A stretch of DNA of 64,000 nucleotides. Source: an uncultured Flavobacteriales bacterium (GTDB lineage: Bacteria; Bacteroidota; Bacteroidia; Flavobacteriales; Schleiferiaceae). Made by a program: the position numbers and the translations under genes. This document shows, piece after piece, positions 9,704-27,600 of the stretch. Location of the stretch: positions 434,001 to 498,000 of the forward strand of contig CAJXKC010000001.1 of assembly GCA_913055685.1 (NCBI GenBank). The letters are read 5' to 3'. Below the pieces are notes generated by a model, which was given only the letters and a program-made list of their open reading frames with translations, ran no database searches and was not told where the DNA came from. Position 1 is the first letter of the stretch. Each line of letters begins with the position of its first letter.

Positions 9704-10675
9704 ATGGCGCGCGTCTTAACTGGAATTCAAAGTAGTGGTATCCCACACCTCGGAAATGCCCTCGGAGCAATTGAACCAGGCATCGAGTTATCTGCAAACC
9801 CAAAGAATGAGTCGTTTTTCTTTATCGCCGACCTACATTCGCTGACCTCAGTGAAAGATGCTGCCAAGCGTAAAGAAAGTGTTTATGCCGTTGCCGCAGC
9901 ATGGCTAGCCTTGGGCTTCGACGCCGAGCGCAATTTCTTTTACCGCCAGAGCGATATTCCAGAAGTCACCGAACTCAGTTGGTATTTGTCCTGCTTTACT
10001 CCTTACCCCATGTTGGCCAATGCCCACAGTTTTAAGGATAAAAGTGATCGCCTAAGCGATGTGAACGCCGGACTATTTACCTACCCAGTACTTATGGCGG
10101 CCGATATTTTATTGTACGACGCGGACCAAGTGCCGGTGGGTAAAGACCAAATACAGCACCTAGAGATGACTCGTGACATGGCCGGGGCTTTAAATCATGC
10201 GGTGGGCAGCGAAATTTTGAAATTACCGGAAGCAGTAGTGCGCGATTCGGTTAAGACCGTACCCGGGACCGATGGTCAAAAGATGAGTAAGAGCTATGGC
10301 AATACCATCGACATTTTTGCCTCGGCAAAGGCTTTAAAAAAGCAGGTAATGGGTATTCTCACCGATAGTACTCCCCTAGAGGAGCCCAAGGACCCAGACA
10401 CCTGTAATGTATTTGCTTTGTACTCTTTGCTAGCCAACGAAGAGCAAATTGCTGAAATGCGCGCAAACTACCTTGGTGGTAATTATGGCTACGGTCATGC
10501 GAAAAAAGCTTTATTAGAACTTATCCTAGATATATATGAGCCTGCGCGTGAACGCTACGATGCCCTCATCAATAATCCTCAAGAAATTGAAGCACAGCTA
10601 TTAGCAGGAGCCGAAAAAGTTCGCCCTATCGCGCAAAGCGTACTAAAAAGGGTAAAAGACAGCTTGGGCTTTTAG
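9704..10675 (+). CDS. trpS: Tryptophanyl-tRNA synthetase
   Basis: Class I aminoacyl-tRNA synthetase charging tRNA(Trp). The 323-residue protein starts [18 protein letters not shown], with the HIGH-like motif at PHLG (14-17), and has the KMSKS loop in [13 protein letters not shown]. Normal length for bacterial TrpRS. The frame extends four codons upstream to a TTG at 9692, but the ATG matches the family start. It is divergent from the plsC-like gene and convergent with lepA; the trpS and lepA stop codons overlap by four bases. Confidence 0.97.
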
Positions 10676-12468
10676 TCATTAAGCTTTAATACCGCCAAGA
10701 AAGCTTGCTGCGGAATCTCAACGTTTCCAACCTGACGCATGCGCTTCTTACCCGCTTTTTGCTTTTCAAGTAATTTACGTTTTCGCGAGATATCGCCACC
10801 GTAACATTTGGCAGTTACATCCTTACGTAAGGCACTTAGCGTTTCACGCGCTATAATTTTTGCCCCAATAGCAGCTTGAATGGCAATCATAAACTGTTGA
10901 CGCGGAATTAATTCCTTCAACTTCTCGCAGATCTTCTTACCAATATCGTATGAATTGCTGCGGTGAATTAGCGCTGATAAGGCATCAACGGGCTCGCCAT
11001 TTAGCATTACATCTACTTTAACCATATCGCTTTCGCGATAACCCACGGGGTGATAATCGAAGGATGCATAGCCGCGGGAAATCGATTTAAGTCGATCGTA
11101 GAAGTCAAATACAATTTCTGCCAAAGGCATATCAAAGGTCATTTCTACCCGTTCAGAAGTTAGGTAAACCTGATTTTTTAGCTGACCTCTTTTTTCAATC
11201 GCTAAGTTCATTACCGCGCCCACATAATCGGCTTTTGTAATAATCTGCGCCTTAATATAAGGCTCTTCCATGCGCTCCATTTTTGTAGGATCGGGAAATT
11301 CGGAAGGGTTATTTACGATTACCTTACTATCTGGCTCCTTCTTCATGTAAGCATAATAACTTACGTTAGGTACCGTGGTAATAACGGTCATATTGAACTC
11401 GCGATCCAAGCGTTCTTGGATAATCTCCATATGAAGCATACCTAAAAAGCCACAACGGAAACCAAAACCTAAGGCCGCTGAAGACTCGGGCTCAAAGGTT
11501 AAAGACGCATCATTGAGCTGTAGCTTTTCCAGGGAAGCGCGTAATTCTTCAAACTCCTCTGTATCTACGGGGTAAATCCCTGCAAACACCATAGGTTTCA
11601 CATTCTCAAAACCTTCAATAGCGGCCGAGGCGGGACGCTCGAAGCTGGTAATGGTATCACCCACCTTCACCTCTTTGGCCTCTTTGATTCCGGAAATGAT
11701 ATAGCCCACATTACCGGTTCCGATTTCTTTGCGAGACTCTTGACCAAGTTTTAAAACCCCGATCTCATCGGCGTAATATTTACTACCGGTGTTCATGAAC
11801 TTTACCTGCTCACCCTTGCGGATTTTCCCGTTTACCACTTTAAAAAAGGCCTCAATGCCTCGATAGGGATTATAAACGGAATCAAAAATTAAGGCTTGTA
11901 AGGGCGCATCTGGGTCTCCCTCAGGAGCAGGAATGCGCTCCACTACCGCTTCCAAAATGTCGTTAATGCCTAAACCAGTTTTGGCGGATGCCATCAAAAT
12001 ATCCTCTTCCTCGCAACCGATAAGGTCGATGATCTGATCTTTAACCTCGTCGGGATTAGCACTCGGAAGGTCAACTTTATTCAAAACTGGAATGATTTCC
12101 AGATCATGTTCAAGCGCTAAGTATAAATTTGAAATAGTTTGGGCTTGAATACCTTGGGCCGCATCAACTACCAAAAGGGCGCCTTCACAAGCGGCAATGG
12201 CTCGTGAAACCTCATAGGAGAAGTCAACGTGTCCGGGGGTGTCAATTAAGTTTAGCGTGTATACCTCGCCATTGGAGAGGTAATTCATCTGAATAGCGTG
12301 ACTTTTAATGGTAATCCCTCTTTCGCGCTCTAGATCCATGTCATCGAGCAACTGATCCTTCTTTTCCCGGTCGGAAATAGTCTGCGTGTGCTCTAAGAGT
12401 CGATCCGCCAAGGTACTCTTGCCGTGGTCGATGTGAGCAATGATGCAGAAATTACGGATCTCCTTCAT
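10672..12468 (-). CDS. lepA: Elongation factor 4 (LepA)
   Basis: Ribosome-bound GTPase that acts during translation and ribosome assembly under stress. The protein, about 598 residues, carries the G1 loop [10 protein letters not shown]2 [10 protein letters not shown]3 DTPGHVD and G4 NKVDLP, then domains II, III and V and the LepA-specific C-terminal domain (ending [22 protein letters not shown]). The family start [16 protein letters not shown] fixes ATG 12468; in-frame methionines two and seven codons further upstream are possible but less likely. Monocistronic in appearance, facing away from the T9SS gene at 12644. Confidence 0.97.
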
Positions 12469-12593
12469 CTTCATGGTGGCCAATTTCAAATTTTTGCGAA
12501 AGTACGTAAAAGCTTAATGCAGACTATATTATTCTCAAGTCCTCTCTTAAACACATTGAAACCATCCTTTTACTTATTAGGGGGCCCTAAGCT

Positions 12594-12643: not shown

Positions 12644-15025
12644 ATGAATATGAAAAGATTATTAGGCCTTTTAGTTTTTGTGCTTTTGGCGAGTTTTTCG
12701 TCGGAGGTAAAGGCTTCTCACTTTTCGAGTGGTGAGATTTATTACCGCTGGGCACCGATACCCACCGACTCTAGTCGCTACGAGGTATTTGTGAACTGGT
12801 ACCGTAATAATGGCGGTATTCCTATTACTCAAACTACGCAAACAGTTTGTATTACCAGTAGCTGTTTTGGTAACGTAAACGGAACGCTTAACCGCTTGAT
12901 GCCTCCGGCAGGTCAAGCTTCCCCCAACGATAACAATGGTGGCTGGATTGTACCAGGGCTAGACGAATGTGCTAATGCCTCTGACCCTTCCTATAAAGAC
13001 TTATCCGTACACAAGTTCTCGGGTTTTGTTTCTTTACCTGGTCAGTGTGGTGATTTCAAGTTTACGGCTAGTGCGGTGTGCTGTCGTGACGTTTCCACTA
13101 ACCTATCCACCTCGCCCAATATGTATTTGGAGGCCAAGTTGAACAATACTCTCGGGGAAAGCTCTTCTCCTGAGATTCAGGCACCTGCAGGTAAAGCCTT
13201 CTGTTTGACCCAGCCTGGCGCGAAGCCATTTGAGTTTATTCAGGCGGCTATTGACCTCGATAACGATAGTATCCGCTACCGTTTTGGTCATCCTCAGTCA
13301 GGTAACAACTGTGGCCCTGGTGCGAATATTCCTTTCTCAATGGGCTTTACCGTGAACTCTCCATTCCCTAGTTCTACTGGTATCGTGATTGATCAACAAA
13401 CCGGTATCTTCCGCTTTAGCCCTTCACAGCAAGGTTCCTATGTGGTAAAGATTGTAGTAGAAGACTGGCGTTTTGATCCGGTAACCCTGCAGTGGTTAAA
13501 CATCGGTGAAACCGTACGTGAGATTCAGGTTCCCGTTACCGCTAACTGTAACCCTACTTCATCCTCTGGTCCTCGGGTATCGATAACTGCCGCTAGCAAC
13601 AATGCCCAGCTTCAGAACTTTACTCAGGCCGACATCGACTCGATGAAGACGCAGTACAATATGGCCTACTTCTTCGGTGAAGACTCCATTACCAATGGCG
13701 TAGCCACCGTGCACCAAATTCCTGTATTCCAAGGTTACAACTGCTTCGACTCTTTAGTTTCTATCGAGTTTAACAATAATGTTCGTTGTGCTTCTGCCAC
13801 GCCAACCGACTTCCGTCTGATTGGTCCTGATGGGGTAGCTCGTCCGATTGTAGAAGTAGAGACCAACTGTCAGTTCCTGGTTTCTCGTAACCTCGACTTA
13901 GTATTAAACCAACCGCTTGATGTGGATGGTAACTATATCCTTCAGATTCGTAGAGGTAATGACGGTACTACCCTCCTTAATGAGTGTGGTATTGAGCTTC
14001 CCGAGTTCTACACCTTCATTATCCCTGTAAGTGGTTGTCCGGCGCCCACCTATCAACTCGATGGGCTTACCGTAGAGCGCGATTTGGATGTGCGTCTCGA
14101 TTGGTCGGGTAATGCCGCCCTTAGTGATCCTTCTATCATTGCTACTTTCAACTCTTGGAATATCTATCGTGCCGACTCAGGTGTTCGACCTATGAGTCTG
14201 GTTAAAGTTATTGATGACCCTAATGCCCGTTTCTTTGTAGACAGCTTTGCCCCCAATGGTTTTTATGTAGACAACTATGTATACGACTACCAAGTAATGT
14301 TGGTGTACAATGGCAAGGGACGTGAGCTTACGCGCTTCTGCTCTAACATGCGCCTGCGTATGGATAGTGCTAAGTCTACCAATGAAGCCAACCAGGCTAA
14401 TACCCTAGCGCTTTACTGGAACCATTACAACTGTATGCCTCCCGCTTCACGTACTTACGATGTATACCGCGGTAAGCTGGATACCTCCAACCTGCGGGTA
14501 AACTGGAGCTTCCTTAGCAATACTTCCGATACTTCTATTACCGTGAATGTGCCTAAGGCCGATAGTCTTAATGAAGGTTCTTACGCCATACGCGTAGTAG
14601 CTCGTAACCCCAATGGTAGCGGTGCCCGTACCGACTCTTCCGAGTCGAACTGGTTCTACTACGGTATCTCCTACTTCCCACCGCCACCACCCCCACCAGA
14701 TCTAGGGCCAGTATTGGTACCTAACATCATCACCCCCAACGGAGATATGATTAATGATCGTTTCTACATCGAAAAACCGCTTAACAGCGACAAGCAATAC
14801 GAAAAAATCGTGCTTAGTATCTTTAACCGTAATGGTCAGCGCGTTTTCCACGACGAAAACTTCCAAGACCGTAACACCCAAGCCGATGGCTGGGATGGTA
14901 CTAGCAACAGCGGACAAAAGCTAACCGATGGTGTATACTTCTACATCCTCGAACTCGCTAACCCCGCTACTGGACAAAATGAAAGCATGCAAGGTAACCT
15001 TACCATTAATGCCGGCATTAACTAA
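12644..15025 (+). CDS. T9SS-secreted giant surface protein, tandem copy 1
   Basis: A 793-residue exported protein. Signal peptide at 1-24 (MNMKRLLGLLVFVLLASF...VKA), then a cysteine-containing N-terminal module opening SHFSSGEIYYRWAP and ending near VREIQVPVTANC (about residue 300). Ig/fibronectin-like segments follow (two repeats with the pattern LDWSG...WNIYRADSG), then a seven-proline linker (P679-P685) and a type B T9SS sorting domain (VPNIITPNGDMINDRFYI ... DGVYFYILEL). It should cross the outer membrane through T9SS and be anchored or released at the surface. Function unknown; adhesin or sheath component is a guess. From base 13394 to its terminator the gene is identical to copy 2. Start by ATG with TTTG/TACTTTTA promoter. 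Confidence 0.9.
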   Translation: MNMKRLLGLLVFVLLASFSSEVKASHFSSGEIYYRWAPIPTDSSRYEVFVNWYRNNGGIPITQTTQTVCITSSCFGNVNGTLNRLMPPAGQASPNDNNGGWIVPGLDECANASDPSYKDLSVHKFSGFVSLPGQCGDFKFTASAVCCRDVSTNLSTSPNMYLEAKLNNTLGESSSPEIQAPAGKAFCLTQPGAKPFEFIQAAIDLDNDSIRYRFGHPQSGNNCGPGANIPFSMGFTVNSPFPSSTGIVIDQQTGIFRFSPSQQGSYVVKIVVEDWRFDPVTLQWLNIGETVREIQVPVTANCNPTSSSGPRVSITAASNNAQLQNFTQADIDSMKTQYNMAYFFGEDSITNGVATVHQIPVFQGYNCFDSLVSIEFNNNVRCASATPTDFRLIGPDGVARPIVEVETNCQFLVSRNLDLVLNQPLDVDGNYILQIRRGNDGTTLLNECGIELPEFYTFIIPVSGCPAPTYQLDGLTVERDLDVRLDWSGNAALSDPSIIATFNSWNIYRADSGVRPMSLVKVIDDPNARFFVDSFAPNGFYVDNYVYDYQVMLVYNGKGRELTRFCSNMRLRMDSAKSTNEANQANTLALYWNHYNCMPPASRTYDVYRGKLDTSNLRVNWSFLSNTSDTSITVNVPKADSLNEGSYAIRVVARNPNGSGARTDSSESNWFYYGISYFPPPPPPPDLGPVLVPNIITPNGDMINDRFYIEKPLNSDKQYEKIVLSIFNRNGQRVFHDENFQDRNTQADGWDGTSNSGQKLTDGVYFYILELANPATGQNESMQGNLTINAGIN

Positions 15026-15083
15026 GCCTACCCTTGCGATAAATACCCAAAAGGCTCGTCGATAGACGGGCCTTTTTCTTTTA
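13394..15083 (+). repeat. Direct repeat, left copy (1,690 bp, identical)
   Basis: Base-for-base identical to 15918-17607 as read line by line (offset 2,524). It covers codons 251-793 of T9SS copy 1, the stop codon, and the whole terminator. Immediately before it, synonymous differences reappear (for example three within seven bases at 13387-13393), so the boundary is sharp. Confidence 0.9.
15049..15082 (+). terminator. Intrinsic terminator of T9SS copy 1
   Basis: A 12-bp stem with one wobble (AAAAGGCTCGTC, loop GATA, GACGGGCCTTTT) followed by T-rich sequence. Present unchanged after copy 2. Confidence 0.85.
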
Positions 15084-15116
15084 CTAATTAAAAGTGGGCT
15101 TTATTTTTTTTTCCCA

Positions 15117-15146
15117 TTGTTTACCTGAATAGCCTTCTTACTTTTA
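15117..15146 (+). promoter_or_regulatory. Promoter of second T9SS paralogue
   Basis: TTG (15117-15119), 19-base spacer, TACTTTTA (15139-15146), 18 bases before ATG 15165. Copy 2 therefore has its own promoter after copy 1's terminator. The upstream bases otherwise differ from those of copy 1. Confidence 0.6.
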
Positions 15147-15164
15147 GCCTCTAAAGATTAAGGC

Positions 15165-17549
15165 ATGAAAATTTTTAAATCACTAGGTTTTTTAGCAATC
15201 GCTCTGCTAGGTCTTCTTCCTGGCTCCGACCTAAAAGCCTCTCACTTCTCTAGCGGTGAGATTTATTACCGCTGGGCACCGATTCCTACCGACTCTAGTC
15301 GCTACGAGGTATTTGTGAACTGGTACCGTAATAATGGCGGTGCGAATATTACCCAGACCACGCAAAATGTATGTATTACCAGTAGCTGTTTTGGCAATGT
15401 GAACGGAGTCCTAAACCGCTTGATGCCTCCTGCAGGGCAGGCCTCTCCTGGCGATAACAATGGTGGCTGGATTGTTCCAGGGCTAGACGAATGTGCTAAT
15501 GCCTCTGACCCTTCCTATAAAGACTTATCCGTACACAAGTTCTCGGGCTTTGTTTCTTTACCTGGTCAGTGTGGTGATTTCAAGTTTACCGCGAATGCGG
15601 TTTGTTGTCGTGACGGGTCAACCAACCTTGCGGCTTCTCCCAATATGTATCTAGAGGCCAAGTTGAACAATACCCTAGGGGAAAGCTCTTCTCCTGAGAT
15701 TCAGGCACCTGCAGGTAAAGCCTTCTGTTTGACCCAGCCTGGCGCCAAGCCATTTGAGTTTATTCAGGCGGCCATTGACCTCGATAATGACAGTATTCGC
15801 TACCGTTTTGGTCATCCCCAACAGGGGGTAAACTGTGGTCCTGGTACCAACATTCCCTTCTCGGCAGGTTTTACAGTAAACTCTCCATTCCCTAGTTCTA
15901 CTGGTATCGTAATCGACCAACAAACCGGTATCTTCCGCTTTAGCCCTTCACAGCAAGGTTCCTATGTGGTAAAGATTGTAGTAGAAGACTGGCGTTTTGA
16001 TCCGGTAACCCTGCAGTGGTTAAACATCGGTGAAACCGTACGTGAGATTCAGGTTCCCGTTACCGCTAACTGTAACCCTACTTCATCCTCTGGTCCTCGG
16101 GTATCGATAACTGCCGCTAGCAACAATGCCCAGCTTCAGAACTTTACTCAGGCCGACATCGACTCGATGAAGACGCAGTACAATATGGCCTACTTCTTCG
16201 GTGAAGACTCCATTACCAATGGCGTAGCCACCGTGCACCAAATTCCTGTATTCCAAGGTTACAACTGCTTCGACTCTTTAGTTTCTATCGAGTTTAACAA
16301 TAATGTTCGTTGTGCTTCTGCCACGCCAACCGACTTCCGTCTGATTGGTCCTGATGGGGTAGCTCGTCCGATTGTAGAAGTAGAGACCAACTGTCAGTTC
16401 CTGGTTTCTCGTAACCTCGACTTAGTATTAAACCAACCGCTTGATGTGGATGGTAACTATATCCTTCAGATTCGTAGAGGTAATGACGGTACTACCCTCC
16501 TTAATGAGTGTGGTATTGAGCTTCCCGAGTTCTACACCTTCATTATCCCTGTAAGTGGTTGTCCGGCGCCCACCTATCAACTCGATGGGCTTACCGTAGA
16601 GCGCGATTTGGATGTGCGTCTCGATTGGTCGGGTAATGCCGCCCTTAGTGATCCTTCTATCATTGCTACTTTCAACTCTTGGAATATCTATCGTGCCGAC
16701 TCAGGTGTTCGACCTATGAGTCTGGTTAAAGTTATTGATGACCCTAATGCCCGTTTCTTTGTAGACAGCTTTGCCCCCAATGGTTTTTATGTAGACAACT
16801 ATGTATACGACTACCAAGTAATGTTGGTGTACAATGGCAAGGGACGTGAGCTTACGCGCTTCTGCTCTAACATGCGCCTGCGTATGGATAGTGCTAAGTC
16901 TACCAATGAAGCCAACCAGGCTAATACCCTAGCGCTTTACTGGAACCATTACAACTGTATGCCTCCCGCTTCACGTACTTACGATGTATACCGCGGTAAG
17001 CTGGATACCTCCAACCTGCGGGTAAACTGGAGCTTCCTTAGCAATACTTCCGATACTTCTATTACCGTGAATGTGCCTAAGGCCGATAGTCTTAATGAAG
17101 GTTCTTACGCCATACGCGTAGTAGCTCGTAACCCCAATGGTAGCGGTGCCCGTACCGACTCTTCCGAGTCGAACTGGTTCTACTACGGTATCTCCTACTT
17201 CCCACCGCCACCACCCCCACCAGATCTAGGGCCAGTATTGGTACCTAACATCATCACCCCCAACGGAGATATGATTAATGATCGTTTCTACATCGAAAAA
17301 CCGCTTAACAGCGACAAGCAATACGAAAAAATCGTGCTTAGTATCTTTAACCGTAATGGTCAGCGCGTTTTCCACGACGAAAACTTCCAAGACCGTAACA
17401 CCCAAGCCGATGGCTGGGATGGTACTAGCAACAGCGGACAAAAGCTAACCGATGGTGTATACTTCTACATCCTCGAACTCGCTAACCCCGCTACTGGACA
17501 AAATGAAAGCATGCAAGGTAACCTTACCATTAATGCCGGCATTAACTAA
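15165..17549 (+). CDS. T9SS-secreted giant surface protein, tandem copy 2
   Basis: A 794-residue paralogue of the preceding gene with the same layout: signal peptide (MKIFKSLGFLAIALLGLLPGS...LKA), SHFSSGEIYYRW N-terminal module, Ig-like segments, seven-proline linker and type B T9SS sorting domain. The signal peptides are unrelated in sequence. The N-terminal module differs at scattered positions (PI/AN in NNGGxxITQ, T/V in VNGxLNR, N/G in ASPxDNN, S/N in FTAxAV, and a cluster in PQxGxNCGPGxNIPFSxGF), while codons 252-794 match copy 1 at every base. Exported to the surface by T9SS. Recent duplication or gene conversion is the best explanation. Function unknown. Confidence 0.9.
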   Translation: MKIFKSLGFLAIALLGLLPGSDLKASHFSSGEIYYRWAPIPTDSSRYEVFVNWYRNNGGANITQTTQNVCITSSCFGNVNGVLNRLMPPAGQASPGDNNGGWIVPGLDECANASDPSYKDLSVHKFSGFVSLPGQCGDFKFTANAVCCRDGSTNLAASPNMYLEAKLNNTLGESSSPEIQAPAGKAFCLTQPGAKPFEFIQAAIDLDNDSIRYRFGHPQQGVNCGPGTNIPFSAGFTVNSPFPSSTGIVIDQQTGIFRFSPSQQGSYVVKIVVEDWRFDPVTLQWLNIGETVREIQVPVTANCNPTSSSGPRVSITAASNNAQLQNFTQADIDSMKTQYNMAYFFGEDSITNGVATVHQIPVFQGYNCFDSLVSIEFNNNVRCASATPTDFRLIGPDGVARPIVEVETNCQFLVSRNLDLVLNQPLDVDGNYILQIRRGNDGTTLLNECGIELPEFYTFIIPVSGCPAPTYQLDGLTVERDLDVRLDWSGNAALSDPSIIATFNSWNIYRADSGVRPMSLVKVIDDPNARFFVDSFAPNGFYVDNYVYDYQVMLVYNGKGRELTRFCSNMRLRMDSAKSTNEANQANTLALYWNHYNCMPPASRTYDVYRGKLDTSNLRVNWSFLSNTSDTSITVNVPKADSLNEGSYAIRVVARNPNGSGARTDSSESNWFYYGISYFPPPPPPPDLGPVLVPNIITPNGDMINDRFYIEKPLNSDKQYEKIVLSIFNRNGQRVFHDENFQDRNTQADGWDGTSNSGQKLTDGVYFYILELANPATGQNESMQGNLTINAGIN

Positions 17550-17607
17550 GCCTACCCTTGCGATAAATACCCAAAAGGCTCGTCGATAGACGGGCCTTTT
17601 TCTTTTA
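15918..17607 (+). repeat. Direct repeat, right copy (1,690 bp, identical)
   Basis: Partner of 13394-15083. Identity ends one base into the sequence following the terminator T-run (A then C in copy 1, A then T in copy 2). Confidence 0.9.
17573..17606 (+). terminator. Intrinsic terminator of T9SS copy 2
   Basis: Identical hairpin to the one after copy 1: 12-bp stem, GATA loop, T-rich tail. Confidence 0.85.
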
Positions 17608-17641: not shown

Positions 17642-17668
17642 AAAAGCCCCTCACAAGGAGGGGCTTTT
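17642..17668 (-). terminator. Terminator of the accBC operon
   Basis: Perfect 11-bp stem (AAAAGCCCCTC / GAGGGGCTTTT) with a 5-base loop, 19 bases past the accC stop. On the minus strand a run of T follows. It could also work as a second barrier for rightward transcription from the T9SS pair. Confidence 0.85.
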
Positions 17669-17686: not shown

Positions 17687-19027
17687 TTAGTCTTCGTACT
17701 TAAAGCTTTCCATAAACTTAGTGGTATAATTCCCGGCGATATAGTCGGGGTCATCCATTAAAGCACGGTGGAAAGGAATGGTAGTTTTTACACCTTCAAT
17801 TACGAACTCATCCAAAGCGCGGCGCATTTTATCAATAGCCTCTTCGCGCGTTTGAGCGGTAGTAATCAATTTAGCAATCATTGAATCGTAATATGGAGGG
17901 ATTGCATAACCAGCGTATACGTGCGTATCTAAACGTACCCCATGGCCTCCCGGTGCATGGAAGGTGGTAATCTTTCCAGGACTAGGACGGAAGTCGTTGG
18001 CTGGATCTTCTGCATTAATACGGCATTCGATAGAATGCAATTTGGGCTCGTAATTCTTACCTGAGATTTTTACCCCTGCCGCTACTTTAATCTGCTCACG
18101 AATTAGATCATAGTCGATTACCTGCTCGGTAATAGGATGCTCTACCTGAATACGGGTATTCATCTCCATGAAGTAGAAGTTGCGGTGTTTATCCACCAAG
18201 AACTCAATGGTTCCAGCACCTTCGTATTTGATGTATTCACAAGCTTTCACCGCGGCTTCTCCCATTTTCTTACGCAAGGCGTCAGTCATGAAAGGAGAAG
18301 GAGTTTCTTCAGTAAGCTTTTGGTGACGACGTTGAATAGAGCAGTCACGCTCAGATAGGTGACATGCCTTTCCGGTTTGGTCACCCACCACCTGAATTTC
18401 AATATGGCGAGGCTCCTCGATTAATTTTTCCATGTACATGCCATCGTTACCGAAGGCCGCACCAGCTTCTTGACGGGCACTTTCCCAGGCCTTTTGGAGC
18501 TCTTCTTCCTTCCAAACAGCACGCATACCTTTACCACCACCACCGGCGGTAGCTTTAAGCATCACGGGGAAGCCCATTTCCTTTGCCAGCTTTTGCGCCT
18601 GTTCAAAAGACTCTAAAAGCCCGTCCGAACCAGGAATGGTAGGCACACCGGCTGCTTTCATAGTAGCCTTAGCGCTAGCCTTATCACCCATACGGTCGAT
18701 CATCTCTGGGCTAGGCCCGATGAACTTAATACCGTGTTCGGAACAAATCTTTGAGAATTTTGCATTCTCAGAAAGGAAGCCATATCCGGGATGGATAGCA
18801 TCGGCATTGGTAATTTCCGCTGCCGCAATAATGTTGGGGATATTCAAATAGCTTTCGCTACTTGCCGCCGGACCAATACAAACCGCTTCGTCGGCAAAAC
18901 GCACGTGCAAGCTGTCTTTATCGGCCTTTGAATAAACCGCTACCGTAGAGATTCCCATTTCCCTGCAGGTACGAATAACCCGTAAGGCAATTTCTCCGCG
19001 GTTAGCGATGAGTACTTTCTTAAACAT
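17687..19027 (-). CDS. accC: Acetyl-CoA carboxylase, biotin carboxylase subunit
   Basis: ATP-dependent carboxylation of biotin on AccB, the first half-reaction of malonyl-CoA synthesis. The 446-residue protein has the N-terminal [25 protein letters not shown] fold, the ATP-grasp glycine loop ([12 protein letters not shown]), the catalytic [13 protein letters not shown] segment and the C-terminal domain ([11 protein letters not shown]). Length and motifs are normal. It is the last gene of the leftward fatty-acid operon, 18 bases after accB, with a perfect terminator downstream. The carboxyltransferase subunits accA and accD are not in the window. Confidence 0.97.
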
Positions 19028-24870: not shown

Positions 24871-24902
24871 TCTGATTAACCCAACACAATTCCCTACTTT
24901 TT
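24871..24902 (+). promoter_or_regulatory. Probable promoter of third T9SS paralogue
   Basis: TCTG (24871-24874, one mismatch to TTTG), 20-base spacer, TACTTTTT (24895-24902). The -7 box resembles those of the tandem pair. ATG follows at 24937. Confidence 0.45.
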
Positions 24903-24936
24903 GCGTTATAAAGGTACACGGAAAAAACACCCTGCG

Positions 24937-27600
24937 ATGAAAAAACTCCTATGGCTCTTATTAGTACTAGGCACAAGCTTTTCGGCTTGGGCTACGCACA
25001 ATAGGGCGGGAGAAATCACTTATCGCTGGATTAATGGTCTTACCTACGAGGTAACCATTACCACTTATACCAGGGCTTGTGATTTATGTGCCGATCGATG
25101 TGAACTGGAAATCCGTTGGGGAGACTCTACCTCCTCCATACTTCCGCGTACCAATGGTAACAGTTTGCGTTGTGCTAACGCTAAGGATGGCGAAATAATC
25201 GACCAAGTAAATCGCATTCGAAAAAATATCTACATCGGGGTTCACACCTACGATGCTCCCGGAATCTATACCTTGGTGATGGAAGACCGCAACCGTAATG
25301 CAGGGATTAGCAATATTCTAAACTCAGACCAGGTTCCCTTTTACATTGAATCGGAGCTCTTTATTTCTCCGAGTTTAGGAGCCAATAGTTCACCAGTTTT
25401 GACCAATCCGCCGGTAGAGCGCGGTTGTATTAATAAGCGGTTTGAACACAATCCGGGGGCTTATGATCCTGATGGGGATAGCCTTGCCTATCGCTTGGTA
25501 TTATCGCGAGCCGAAAACGGTGATCCTATCCAAACTATTTATGATCCTACTTACGTGCAAGACTCGGTGAAAATCGACGGGAATTCGGGTATGCTCTATT
25601 GGGACGTTCCTAAAAATGTGGGACAGTATAACTTTGCCTTCGAAATCATTGAGTATCGGAAAAATCAACAGGGACGCTACGTGCGGATAGGCCATGTTAC
25701 CCGCGACTTGCAAGTCGATATCGAGGACTGTGGTAATAATCCGCCGGTAGTAAACCCGGTCGGGCCATTCTGTGTAGAAGCAGGCACCTCCTTAAATTTC
25801 GCGGTGAGCGCCACCGACCCCGATGGGGATGATATCACCTTAAGCAGTTTCGGCGGACCCTATGTGGCTTTGCCAAGAGCTAGTTTTCCGGATGTAACGG
25901 GTCCGACACCCGTTACTGGCTTCTTTAACTGGAATACTTCCTGTGCCTTAGTGCGCAAGCAGCCTTATCAGGTAAGCTTTAAGGCCACCGATATTCCCCC
26001 CGACCCCTTTGAAGTGCCCTTGTCTGATATTTACGATACCGAAATTCTAATAGTTGCACCGGCTCCCAAAAACCCAATGGCCGAGGCCGAGGGAAGAGCC
26101 TTGCGCCTTAACTGGAACCCTAGTATCTGTAGCCAGGCTGAAGGCTATTTAGTTTACCGCCGCGAAAGCCCCTATGGTTTTATCCCCAGCCAATGTGAAG
26201 TAGGGGTTCCCGCCTACACGGGCTACGAGTTTTTAGACTCCCTTGATGGAGGGTTAAACGATACCACCTACTTAGACACCAATGGCATTGAGATCGGTAA
26301 GCAATACTGTTACATGGTAGTAGCTTATTTTAGAGATGAAGCCCTTAGTTATGCCAGCGAAGAATTCTGTGCGGCTTTGCCGCTTAATCTACCCCTCCTT
26401 ACCAAAGTGGATGTCAGTGCTACCGATCCCGGTGCGGGCCGCATGGAAATTGAATGGATTGCCCCACCAGAATTCGACAGCACCCTATTTCCGCCTCCTT
26501 ACCGTATGGACCTAATGCGCAGAGTACAGGATGGTGGCGCTTTTACCTTGCTAAATAGCTTTAATGGTTTACTAGACGGTGCCTTTAGTGACGCCAACCT
26601 TAATACCAGCAATGAAGCGTACGAGTACCGAATTGATTTATACTCGGGTCCGAATGCCGATTTTGTGGGCTCTTCGGCCGATGCGAGTTCGGTTTTCACT
26701 AAGGCTAAAGGTGTGGACCAAGCTGTAGAACTCGACTTTGAGTTTGACACCCCATGGAACAATGAACGCTATGTGATCTATCGCGAGAACCCTACTGGTT
26801 CTGGTAGTTTTGATAGTATCGGAGAAAGCTTTGTTCCCGAATACAAAGACATGGGCTTGGTGAACGGCGAAACCTATTGTTACTATGCAGAGGCCTTTGG
26901 ACGTTACACTGCCAGCGACTCTTTGCCTCGTCCTCTTATAAATCGTAGTCAGATTACCTGTGCCTCGGCTCGCGACACCATCGCCCCTTGTACCCCTATT
27001 TTAAGCGTGCGCAATGTTTGTCCGGATACCATCTACTTTAGTTGGATTTTAAACCAAAGCCCGGAATGTGGCAATGATGTATATCGAGTAAACATCTATT
27101 TCCGCTCGGGAGAAAATGGATTTGGCTCTCAGCCAATTTTAAGCATCCGCACCAGTAGCGACTCTACCATAAAATTTGTGAGTGATGCCTCCATTTTTGG
27201 ATGCTATGCTATAAGCGCGGTGGATGATGCCGACCAAGACCCTAATGGTCAGGCCAATGAGAGTCCCCTTAGCGCTGAAGTGTGCATTGAGTCCTGTTTT
27301 ACCATTGGTTTCCCCAATGTCTTTACTCCAAATGGAGATAATTTCTCCGAGACCTTCCTCCCCACTGACATTGAGCAGGTTCAAGATCTGGAAATCGAGA
27401 TTTACAATCGCTGGGGAACCTTGGTATATGATGCCCGCAGTTTGAGTGAGTTTATGGCCCAAGGTTGGGATGGAAATGTCAAAAGTACCGGTATGCCGGC
27501 TCCCGACGGAGTTTACTACTACATTTGCCGTTATTATGTCGAAAGTTTAGGTCCGGCGCGCGAACAAATTGCCACTGGATTCGTCCACTTATTTAGATAA
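24937..27600 (+). CDS. T9SS-secreted surface protein, distant paralogue of the tandem pair
   Basis: An 887-residue exported protein. Signal peptide MKKLLWLLLVLGTSFSAWA (1-19), then an N-terminal module starting THNRAGEITYRW that parallels SHFSSGEIYYRW of the tandem pair and ends VTRDLQVDIEDC, matching VREIQVPVTANC. Next come several cysteine-bearing fibronectin-like repeats (RLNWNPSICSQAEGYLVYRRES; IEWIAPPEFDS; VIYRENPTGSG). The C-terminus is a type B T9SS sorting domain (FPNVFTPNGDNFSETF ... DGVYYYICRY). Surface or extracellular. An upstream TTG at 24901 gives a longer frame but would put 12 basic residues ahead of the signal peptide, so ATG is chosen. Function unknown. Confidence 0.9.
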   Translation: MKKLLWLLLVLGTSFSAWATHNRAGEITYRWINGLTYEVTITTYTRACDLCADRCELEIRWGDSTSSILPRTNGNSLRCANAKDGEIIDQVNRIRKNIYIGVHTYDAPGIYTLVMEDRNRNAGISNILNSDQVPFYIESELFISPSLGANSSPVLTNPPVERGCINKRFEHNPGAYDPDGDSLAYRLVLSRAENGDPIQTIYDPTYVQDSVKIDGNSGMLYWDVPKNVGQYNFAFEIIEYRKNQQGRYVRIGHVTRDLQVDIEDCGNNPPVVNPVGPFCVEAGTSLNFAVSATDPDGDDITLSSFGGPYVALPRASFPDVTGPTPVTGFFNWNTSCALVRKQPYQVSFKATDIPPDPFEVPLSDIYDTEILIVAPAPKNPMAEAEGRALRLNWNPSICSQAEGYLVYRRESPYGFIPSQCEVGVPAYTGYEFLDSLDGGLNDTTYLDTNGIEIGKQYCYMVVAYFRDEALSYASEEFCAALPLNLPLLTKVDVSATDPGAGRMEIEWIAPPEFDSTLFPPPYRMDLMRRVQDGGAFTLLNSFNGLLDGAFSDANLNTSNEAYEYRIDLYSGPNADFVGSSADASSVFTKAKGVDQAVELDFEFDTPWNNERYVIYRENPTGSGSFDSIGESFVPEYKDMGLVNGETYCYYAEAFGRYTASDSLPRPLINRSQITCASARDTIAPCTPILSVRNVCPDTIYFSWILNQSPECGNDVYRVNIYFRSGENGFGSQPILSIRTSSDSTIKFVSDASIFGCYAISAVDDADQDPNGQANESPLSAEVCIESCFTIGFPNVFTPNGDNFSETFLPTDIEQVQDLEIEIYNRWGTLVYDARSLSEFMAQGWDGNVKSTGMPAPDGVYYYICRYYVESLGPAREQIATGFVHLFR

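Follow-up and report, generated by a model that had tools for sequence, protein, structure and literature searches.

Recurrent gene conversion as the probable cause of mosaic identity in tandem T9SS cargo genes beside lepA

How do two neighbouring genes come to differ in their 5′ parts while every base of the rest, terminator included, is the same? This question is raised by a tandem pair of an uncultured Flavobacteriales bacterium, located in the window, i.e. the whole 64,000-nt stretch of DNA analysed, which sits in a 1.54-Mb contig (C1). Copy 1 (12644-15025, + strand) encodes a 793-aa T9SS type B cargo protein with a signal peptide, an N module, an Ig/FN3-like middle and a CHU_C tail, as assigned from the ORF, profile matches and the predicted structure. 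Copy 2 (15165-17549, + strand) encodes a 794-aa paralogue with 97% identity to copy 1, as assigned from the ORF, protein comparison and a CHU_C match. CHU_C (PF13585) was found over its cut-off in both copies (E = 5.3e-21 in copy 1 and 5.4e-21 in copy 2; 75 bits against a cut-off of 27), and TIGR04131 scored 40.3 bits against a cut-off of 35, indicating a type B sorting domain. On these matches both genes would rank as T9SS cargo by the type B sorting-domain criterion, and export to the surface is predicted. A search of the window's genome for the T9SS machinery components SprA and PorU detected both (SprA_N, 528.8 bits, cut-off 27; PorU NF033707, 1241.2 bits, cut-off 420).

The identical tract and its silent sites

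Direct comparison of the copies showed that positions 13394-15083 equal positions 15918-17607 (both + strand, register +2524) base for base over all 1,690 nt, from residue 251 through the terminator, exactly as an earlier note on this DNA had claimed. The two intrinsic terminators, hairpins with a T tail at 15049-15076 in copy 1 and at 17573-17600 in copy 2 (+ strand), lie within the tract. The last upstream mismatches are at 13387, 13390 and 13393 and the first downstream mismatch is at 15084; the spacers downstream of the two terminators do not match each other. Just 5′ of the tract, the alignable part of copy 1 (12701-13393, + strand) showed 86 mismatches over 693 nt when aligned against that of copy 2 (15225-15917, + strand). 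Under even placement, the chance that all 86 mismatches fall within the first 693 of 2,383 positions is about 10^-46.

In residues 25-250 (the N part), 35 of the 102 four-fold sites carry a difference, and none of the 260 in residues 251-793 (the C part) does (Fisher 4e-22), bearing out the diverged 5′ ends with many silent changes described in the note. The strong divergence of the signal peptides (residues 1-24; pS 0.75, pN 0.35) was likewise seen, although to call them unrelated, as the note did, is too strong; residues 1-24 are equally fast in the within-genome pairs of the related genomes G003, G005 and G006 (pN 0.39-0.46).

A silent-run (Sawyer-type) test was carried out on 390 silent polymorphic codons of eight aligned genes. 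The result showed a run of 253 identical codons in the window pair (residues 251-789, P <= 1e-4), one of 120 codons in the G003 pair (P <= 1e-4) and one of 32 codons in the G005 pair (P = 0.0018), and the seven between-genome control pairs gave P values of 0.045-0.79, the lowest for the first copies of G004 and G002. The runs and the four-fold sites together exclude a single even-aged duplication, in agreement with the note's argument that one old duplication does not fit; equal silent divergence along the whole gene, which it had named as refuting, is not seen, and the divergence instead breaks sharply at residue 250/251. The silent-run test was added because a second statistic, a permutation of the lowest 80-codon synonymous window (hereafter the trough test), is ill suited to the window pair, which is mostly identical (P = 0.07).

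The 1,690-nt block is present exactly twice in the window's genome (8 contigs, 2.96 Mb searched). Antigenic variation from silent cassettes does not fit, as no reservoir of partial donor copies was found: the block occurs in these two genes only, and none of the 14 further protein matches in the genome exceeds 44% identity. A coincidence of the tract start with a domain border was also rejected, since the predicted structure (mean pLDDT 78.5, pTM 0.44) puts residue 251 inside the N module, between strands and not in a low-confidence linker.

Homogenisation in related species

The relatives are recorded in the databases as Flavobacteriales or Bacteroidetes metagenome-assembled genomes. The comparison was made between species, a distance at which silent sites are close to saturation, and included seven genomes of the genus. 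In G003, whose copies lie on one contig, amino acid identity between copies 1 and 2 is 100% (rounded) in residues 251-793 versus 84% in residues 25-250, and an exact run of 872 nt spans residues 481-773. The two G003 terminators match each other and, by eye, differ from those of the window; identity extends, again by eye, nine bases beyond the T run. In G005, also on one contig, the copies share 96% of the C part versus 87% of the N part; from residue 241 on, identity per 60 residues is 81, 93, 89, 97, 97, 100, 92, 93 and 89%, a profile that reads as partly decayed homogenisation. The C part of the window's genes is only 69-71% identical to copies 1 and 2 of the G003 and G005 species, so the homogenisation events were separate. 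The sequence profiles thus point to recurrent, separate homogenisation, in G003 and G005 and, by the trough test, in G008, G019 and G027 as well.

The same comparison bears on an old duplication followed by extreme DNA-level constraint on the C part. The C part does contain the CHU_C signal, which needs conservation; however, while it is 100% identical within the window, that of copy 1 is 69-71% identical at the amino acid level to copy 1 of four congeners (G002, G003, G004 and G005), and copy 1 C parts across species share 69-84%. Silent sites of the window's copy 1 C part are near saturation against copy 1 of G003 and G005 (pS 0.56-0.76), and the stretch after the stop codon up to the terminator is identical between the window's copies too. 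Export-domain constraint as the cause of identity was therefore rejected, its probability being practically negligible.

In the tree of residues 400-793, copies 1 and 2 group by genome in the window, G003 and G005 with 100% support, and grouping of G003 and G005 by position was rejected (delta lnL 543, AU 2e-55). For residues 25-250 of the same two genomes, enforcing grouping by genome lowers the log likelihood by 24.6 and is not rejected (AU 0.08). Quartet sites of G003 and G005 supporting grouping by position, grouping by genome and the cross arrangement numbered 34, 11 and 10 in residues 1-150, 10, 37 and 6 in residues 151-300, and 1, 288 and 1 in residues 301-793. In all bins, window quartets with G003 and G005 favoured grouping by genome; the window's N parts cluster together with 100% support and show no grouping by position.

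The trough test covered 12 of the 33 listed within-genome pairs, drawn from 11 genomes (each genome's closest pair and, in addition, copies 1 and 3 of G005); pairs of G001 and G002 and a second G009 cluster were left out. P was at most 0.01 in five of the 12 (G003, G005, G008, G019 and G027), 0.065-0.073 in the window, G006 and G009 (the G009 trough lying in the N part, 203-286), and at least 0.28 in copies 1 and 3 of G005 and in G004, G021 and G014; copies 1 and 2 of G004 show no homogenisation in the synonymous profile. Among 16 between-genome pairs, one reached P <= 0.01 (G1_c/G5_3), with its trough in the N part (165-235). The lowest synonymous windows are residues 251-793 in the window pair, 481-772 in G003, 524-609 in G005, 401-479 in G008, 425-507 in G027 (where the second copy is cut short) and 715-792 in G019 (with a second dip at 451-540), a distribution suggestive, though not proof, of a common centre for the low-divergence tracts.

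The array locus and probable gene conversion

The pair is placed between trpS-lepA and accC-accB-fabH-plsX (names by NCBIfam; plsX lies slightly under its cut-off, 240.5 versus 243.4 bits). The left neighbour is lepA (10672-12489, - strand; TIGR01393 and synteny) and the right neighbour is accC (17687-19027, - strand; TIGR00514 and synteny). In relatives, the number of type B T9SS cargo genes in this interval ranges from one to four. Among 16 stretches from 14 genomes, six have both flanks, seven lepA only, two accC only and one (in G007) neither; where one flank was seen, the other side ends at the contig or stretch end or gave no match in the portion read (no accC in the 5.9 kb read in G020). 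In G007, no lepA was found in the 6.5 kb read on the upstream side. A further 12 stretches include four with lepA upstream (G010 and G016, and G027 and G036 from outside the family; in G036 the distance is about 1.5 kb). All seven genus genomes compared carry array genes, with two to four matches each: two copies in the window and three or four matches in the other six. In G006, the most divergent array copy is the one closest to lepA. G008 has a tandem pair on the opposite side of lepA (L066:5203-12265); this pair converges on lepA, and array and lepA diverge in the other 12 + 4 lepA-bearing stretches.

A recent unequal crossing-over or fresh tandem duplication could leave one gene as a 5′/3′ chimera without any conversion. 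The variable copy number shows that the array expands or contracts, and the window has two copies against three or four matches in its six congeners. A single crossover, however, would take along the spacer after copy 1, and the spacers after the terminators mismatch; several tracts would also account more readily for the uneven G005 profile. Crossing-over as the sole cause was rejected on account of the differing downstream spacers, and we regard this reading as improbable.

Still less probable is an assembly or polishing artefact that merged truly different C parts into one consensus. Contigs end inside the array in G001 (L057, L058), G002 (L059, L060) and G022 (L065), as would be expected if near-identical copies break assemblies, and the locus may therefore assemble badly. 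However, both flanks and both N parts of the window's genes are placed in contig C1, the pattern is repeated with different sequences in two single-contig genomes, and the decayed G005 tracts could hardly be produced by an artefact.

We consider it highly probable that these tandem T9SS type B cargo paralogues are in concerted evolution via recurrent, recent gene conversion. The note had left gene conversion and very recent partial duplication side by side; the present data strongly support conversion, or an equivalent non-reciprocal transfer, and it recurs in related species, so that copying at the locus looks like a habit rather than an accident. Some observations weigh on the other side: the trough P of the window is 0.07, seven of the 12 within-genome pairs lie above 0.01, the N-part trees of G003 and G005 still allow grouping by genome while their quartets already favour it from residue 151 on, the window's own N parts cluster together, copies 1 and 2 of G004 are not homogenised, and one control has P = 0.045.

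In the proposed mechanism, non-reciprocal homologous recombination, presumably of the RecA type and acting between sister chromosomes or inside one, would overwrite one copy, from residue 251 to 793 and on through the terminator, with the sequence of the other; its upstream end would fall within the gene and its downstream end at the loss of homology just past the terminator. Because the tract ends near the terminator in the window and in G003, RNA-templated conversion that stops there was weighed as well; since G003 identity runs past the T run, simple loss of homology would be enough. Conversion may be self-reinforcing, the similar C part continuing to recombine and the N part having diverged enough to escape; purifying selection on copy-specific N modules may also hold the N parts apart. 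Because the window's N parts group together, an older duplication or whole-gene conversion is needed in its lineage, and the order of events would be whole-gene duplication or conversion, then divergence of the N parts, then renewed copying of the C part.

A second, bidirectional hairpin lies at 17642-17668, between the copy 2 terminator and accC, where by eye a single hairpin follows the last array gene in G003, G004 and G005. It is probably the terminator of accC, or may be a leftover of a lost last array copy. The presence of two hairpins after copy 2 hints either that this copy received the end of copy 1 or at loss of a last copy, and for this reason copy 1 is slightly favoured as the donor. 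In G001, a stop codon splits the last array gene into two reading frames (L057:3091-5394), and array genes may thus also be decaying.

N part, export end and known systems

The note had further suggested diversification of a probable exposed tip combined with homogenisation of the export end. The first suggestion was not supported. Identity of copy 1 between species is higher in the N part than in the C part (88 versus 71% for window and G003, 90 versus 71% for window and G005, 93 versus 84% for G003 and G005), and copy 1 dN is higher in the C part (0.24 versus 0.10 for window and G003; 0.116 versus 0.053 for G003 and G005). The contrast is weaker or absent in copy 2, with identities of 79 versus 71% (window and G003) and 85 versus 84% (G003 and G005) and no excess of dN in the C part (0.115 versus 0.116 in the latter pair). 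Differences between the N parts of the window's copies are mostly silent (dN/dS 0.080, dS 0.54). Conservation of the copy 1 N part and these mainly silent differences do not fit a diversifying tip.

The second suggestion was borne out in part: the tract takes in the whole secretion tail in the window and nearly all of it in G003, and in G019 the tail has the lowest pS (0.33), but the tail is diverged in G005 and G006, so that the pattern is not general. The secretion-signal segment (residues 691-793) has a pS of 0.35 versus 0.08-0.09 in residues 451-620 in G005, and of 0.85 versus 0.48 in G006. The tract lies mid-gene, away from the tail, in G005, G008 and G027, with G019 as the exception. It is conceivable, though we hold this only tentatively, that the lepA-adjacent tandem T9SS genes form a self-maintaining mosaic, with a middle (about 400-610) that is re-copied between neighbours across several genera and copy-specific N modules that escape or are protected by selection, i.e. 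position-specific heads on a shared, rapidly evolving stalk; its scope would be this Flavobacteriales family and at least one genome of another family.

For H. pylori, the source cited for segment-wise concerted evolution is reportedly the 2002 work of Pride and Blaser. According to two papers, the 5′ parts of H. pylori babA/babB and homA/homB group by gene and the 3′ parts by genome, intragenomic gene conversion with concerted evolution of segment 3 has been proposed, and homA/homB are under purifying selection (PMC2795765, PMC3960876). The likeness lies in paralogous surface-protein genes with a segment that is homogenised within genomes and, in residues 1-150 of G003 and G005, in quartet sites that favour grouping by position. 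In contrast, the window's genes lie side by side with housekeeping genes on both flanks, their tract extends through the terminator, species rather than strains are compared, and the window's own 5′ parts are not grouped by position. The window's bacterium also belongs to a different phylum, and its protein is a predicted T9SS cargo. In Porphyromonas gingivalis, gingipain and HagA genes show module rearrangement and allelic exchange between strains, with antigen variation suggested (PMC5266723). The likeness is that T9SS cargo proteins with a common C-terminal domain have domain modules that recombine (PMC5266723), whereas exchange in the window homogenises two neighbours.

Gene conversion between tandem T9SS paralogues was not described in the literature searched, most subscription papers lying outside the search. 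For T9SS cargo genes of environmental Bacteroidota, the locus is a clean, replicated case of concerted evolution, with one genomic slot, several species and unmistakable tracts. The C part of such genes can be a misleading basis for orthology, dN/dS and typing, and draft assemblies may break at the lepA-accC array. With tracts that differ in age, the locus is also a natural series in which conversion could be measured in uncultured bacteria.

Compared with T9SS type B (CHU_C/TIGR04131) cargo, the tail of the window's proteins is ordinary and lies over the curated cut-off, whereas the N module (12716-13543, residues 25 to about 300) gave no Pfam match over cut-off. The best 50 rows of a fold search with the predicted structure were Ig/FN3-type and other multi-domain proteins (TM-scores by query at most 0.16), and a profile search of solved structures gave weak matches (E 0.002-0.005); neither bears on function. 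The N module, which starts near ASHFSSGEIYY, is also found in three other proteins of the window's genome (30% identity) and in related genomes. A further ORF of the window (24901-27600, + strand, 899 aa) has a CHU_C-like tail with 37% identity to copy 1 over residues 692-770.
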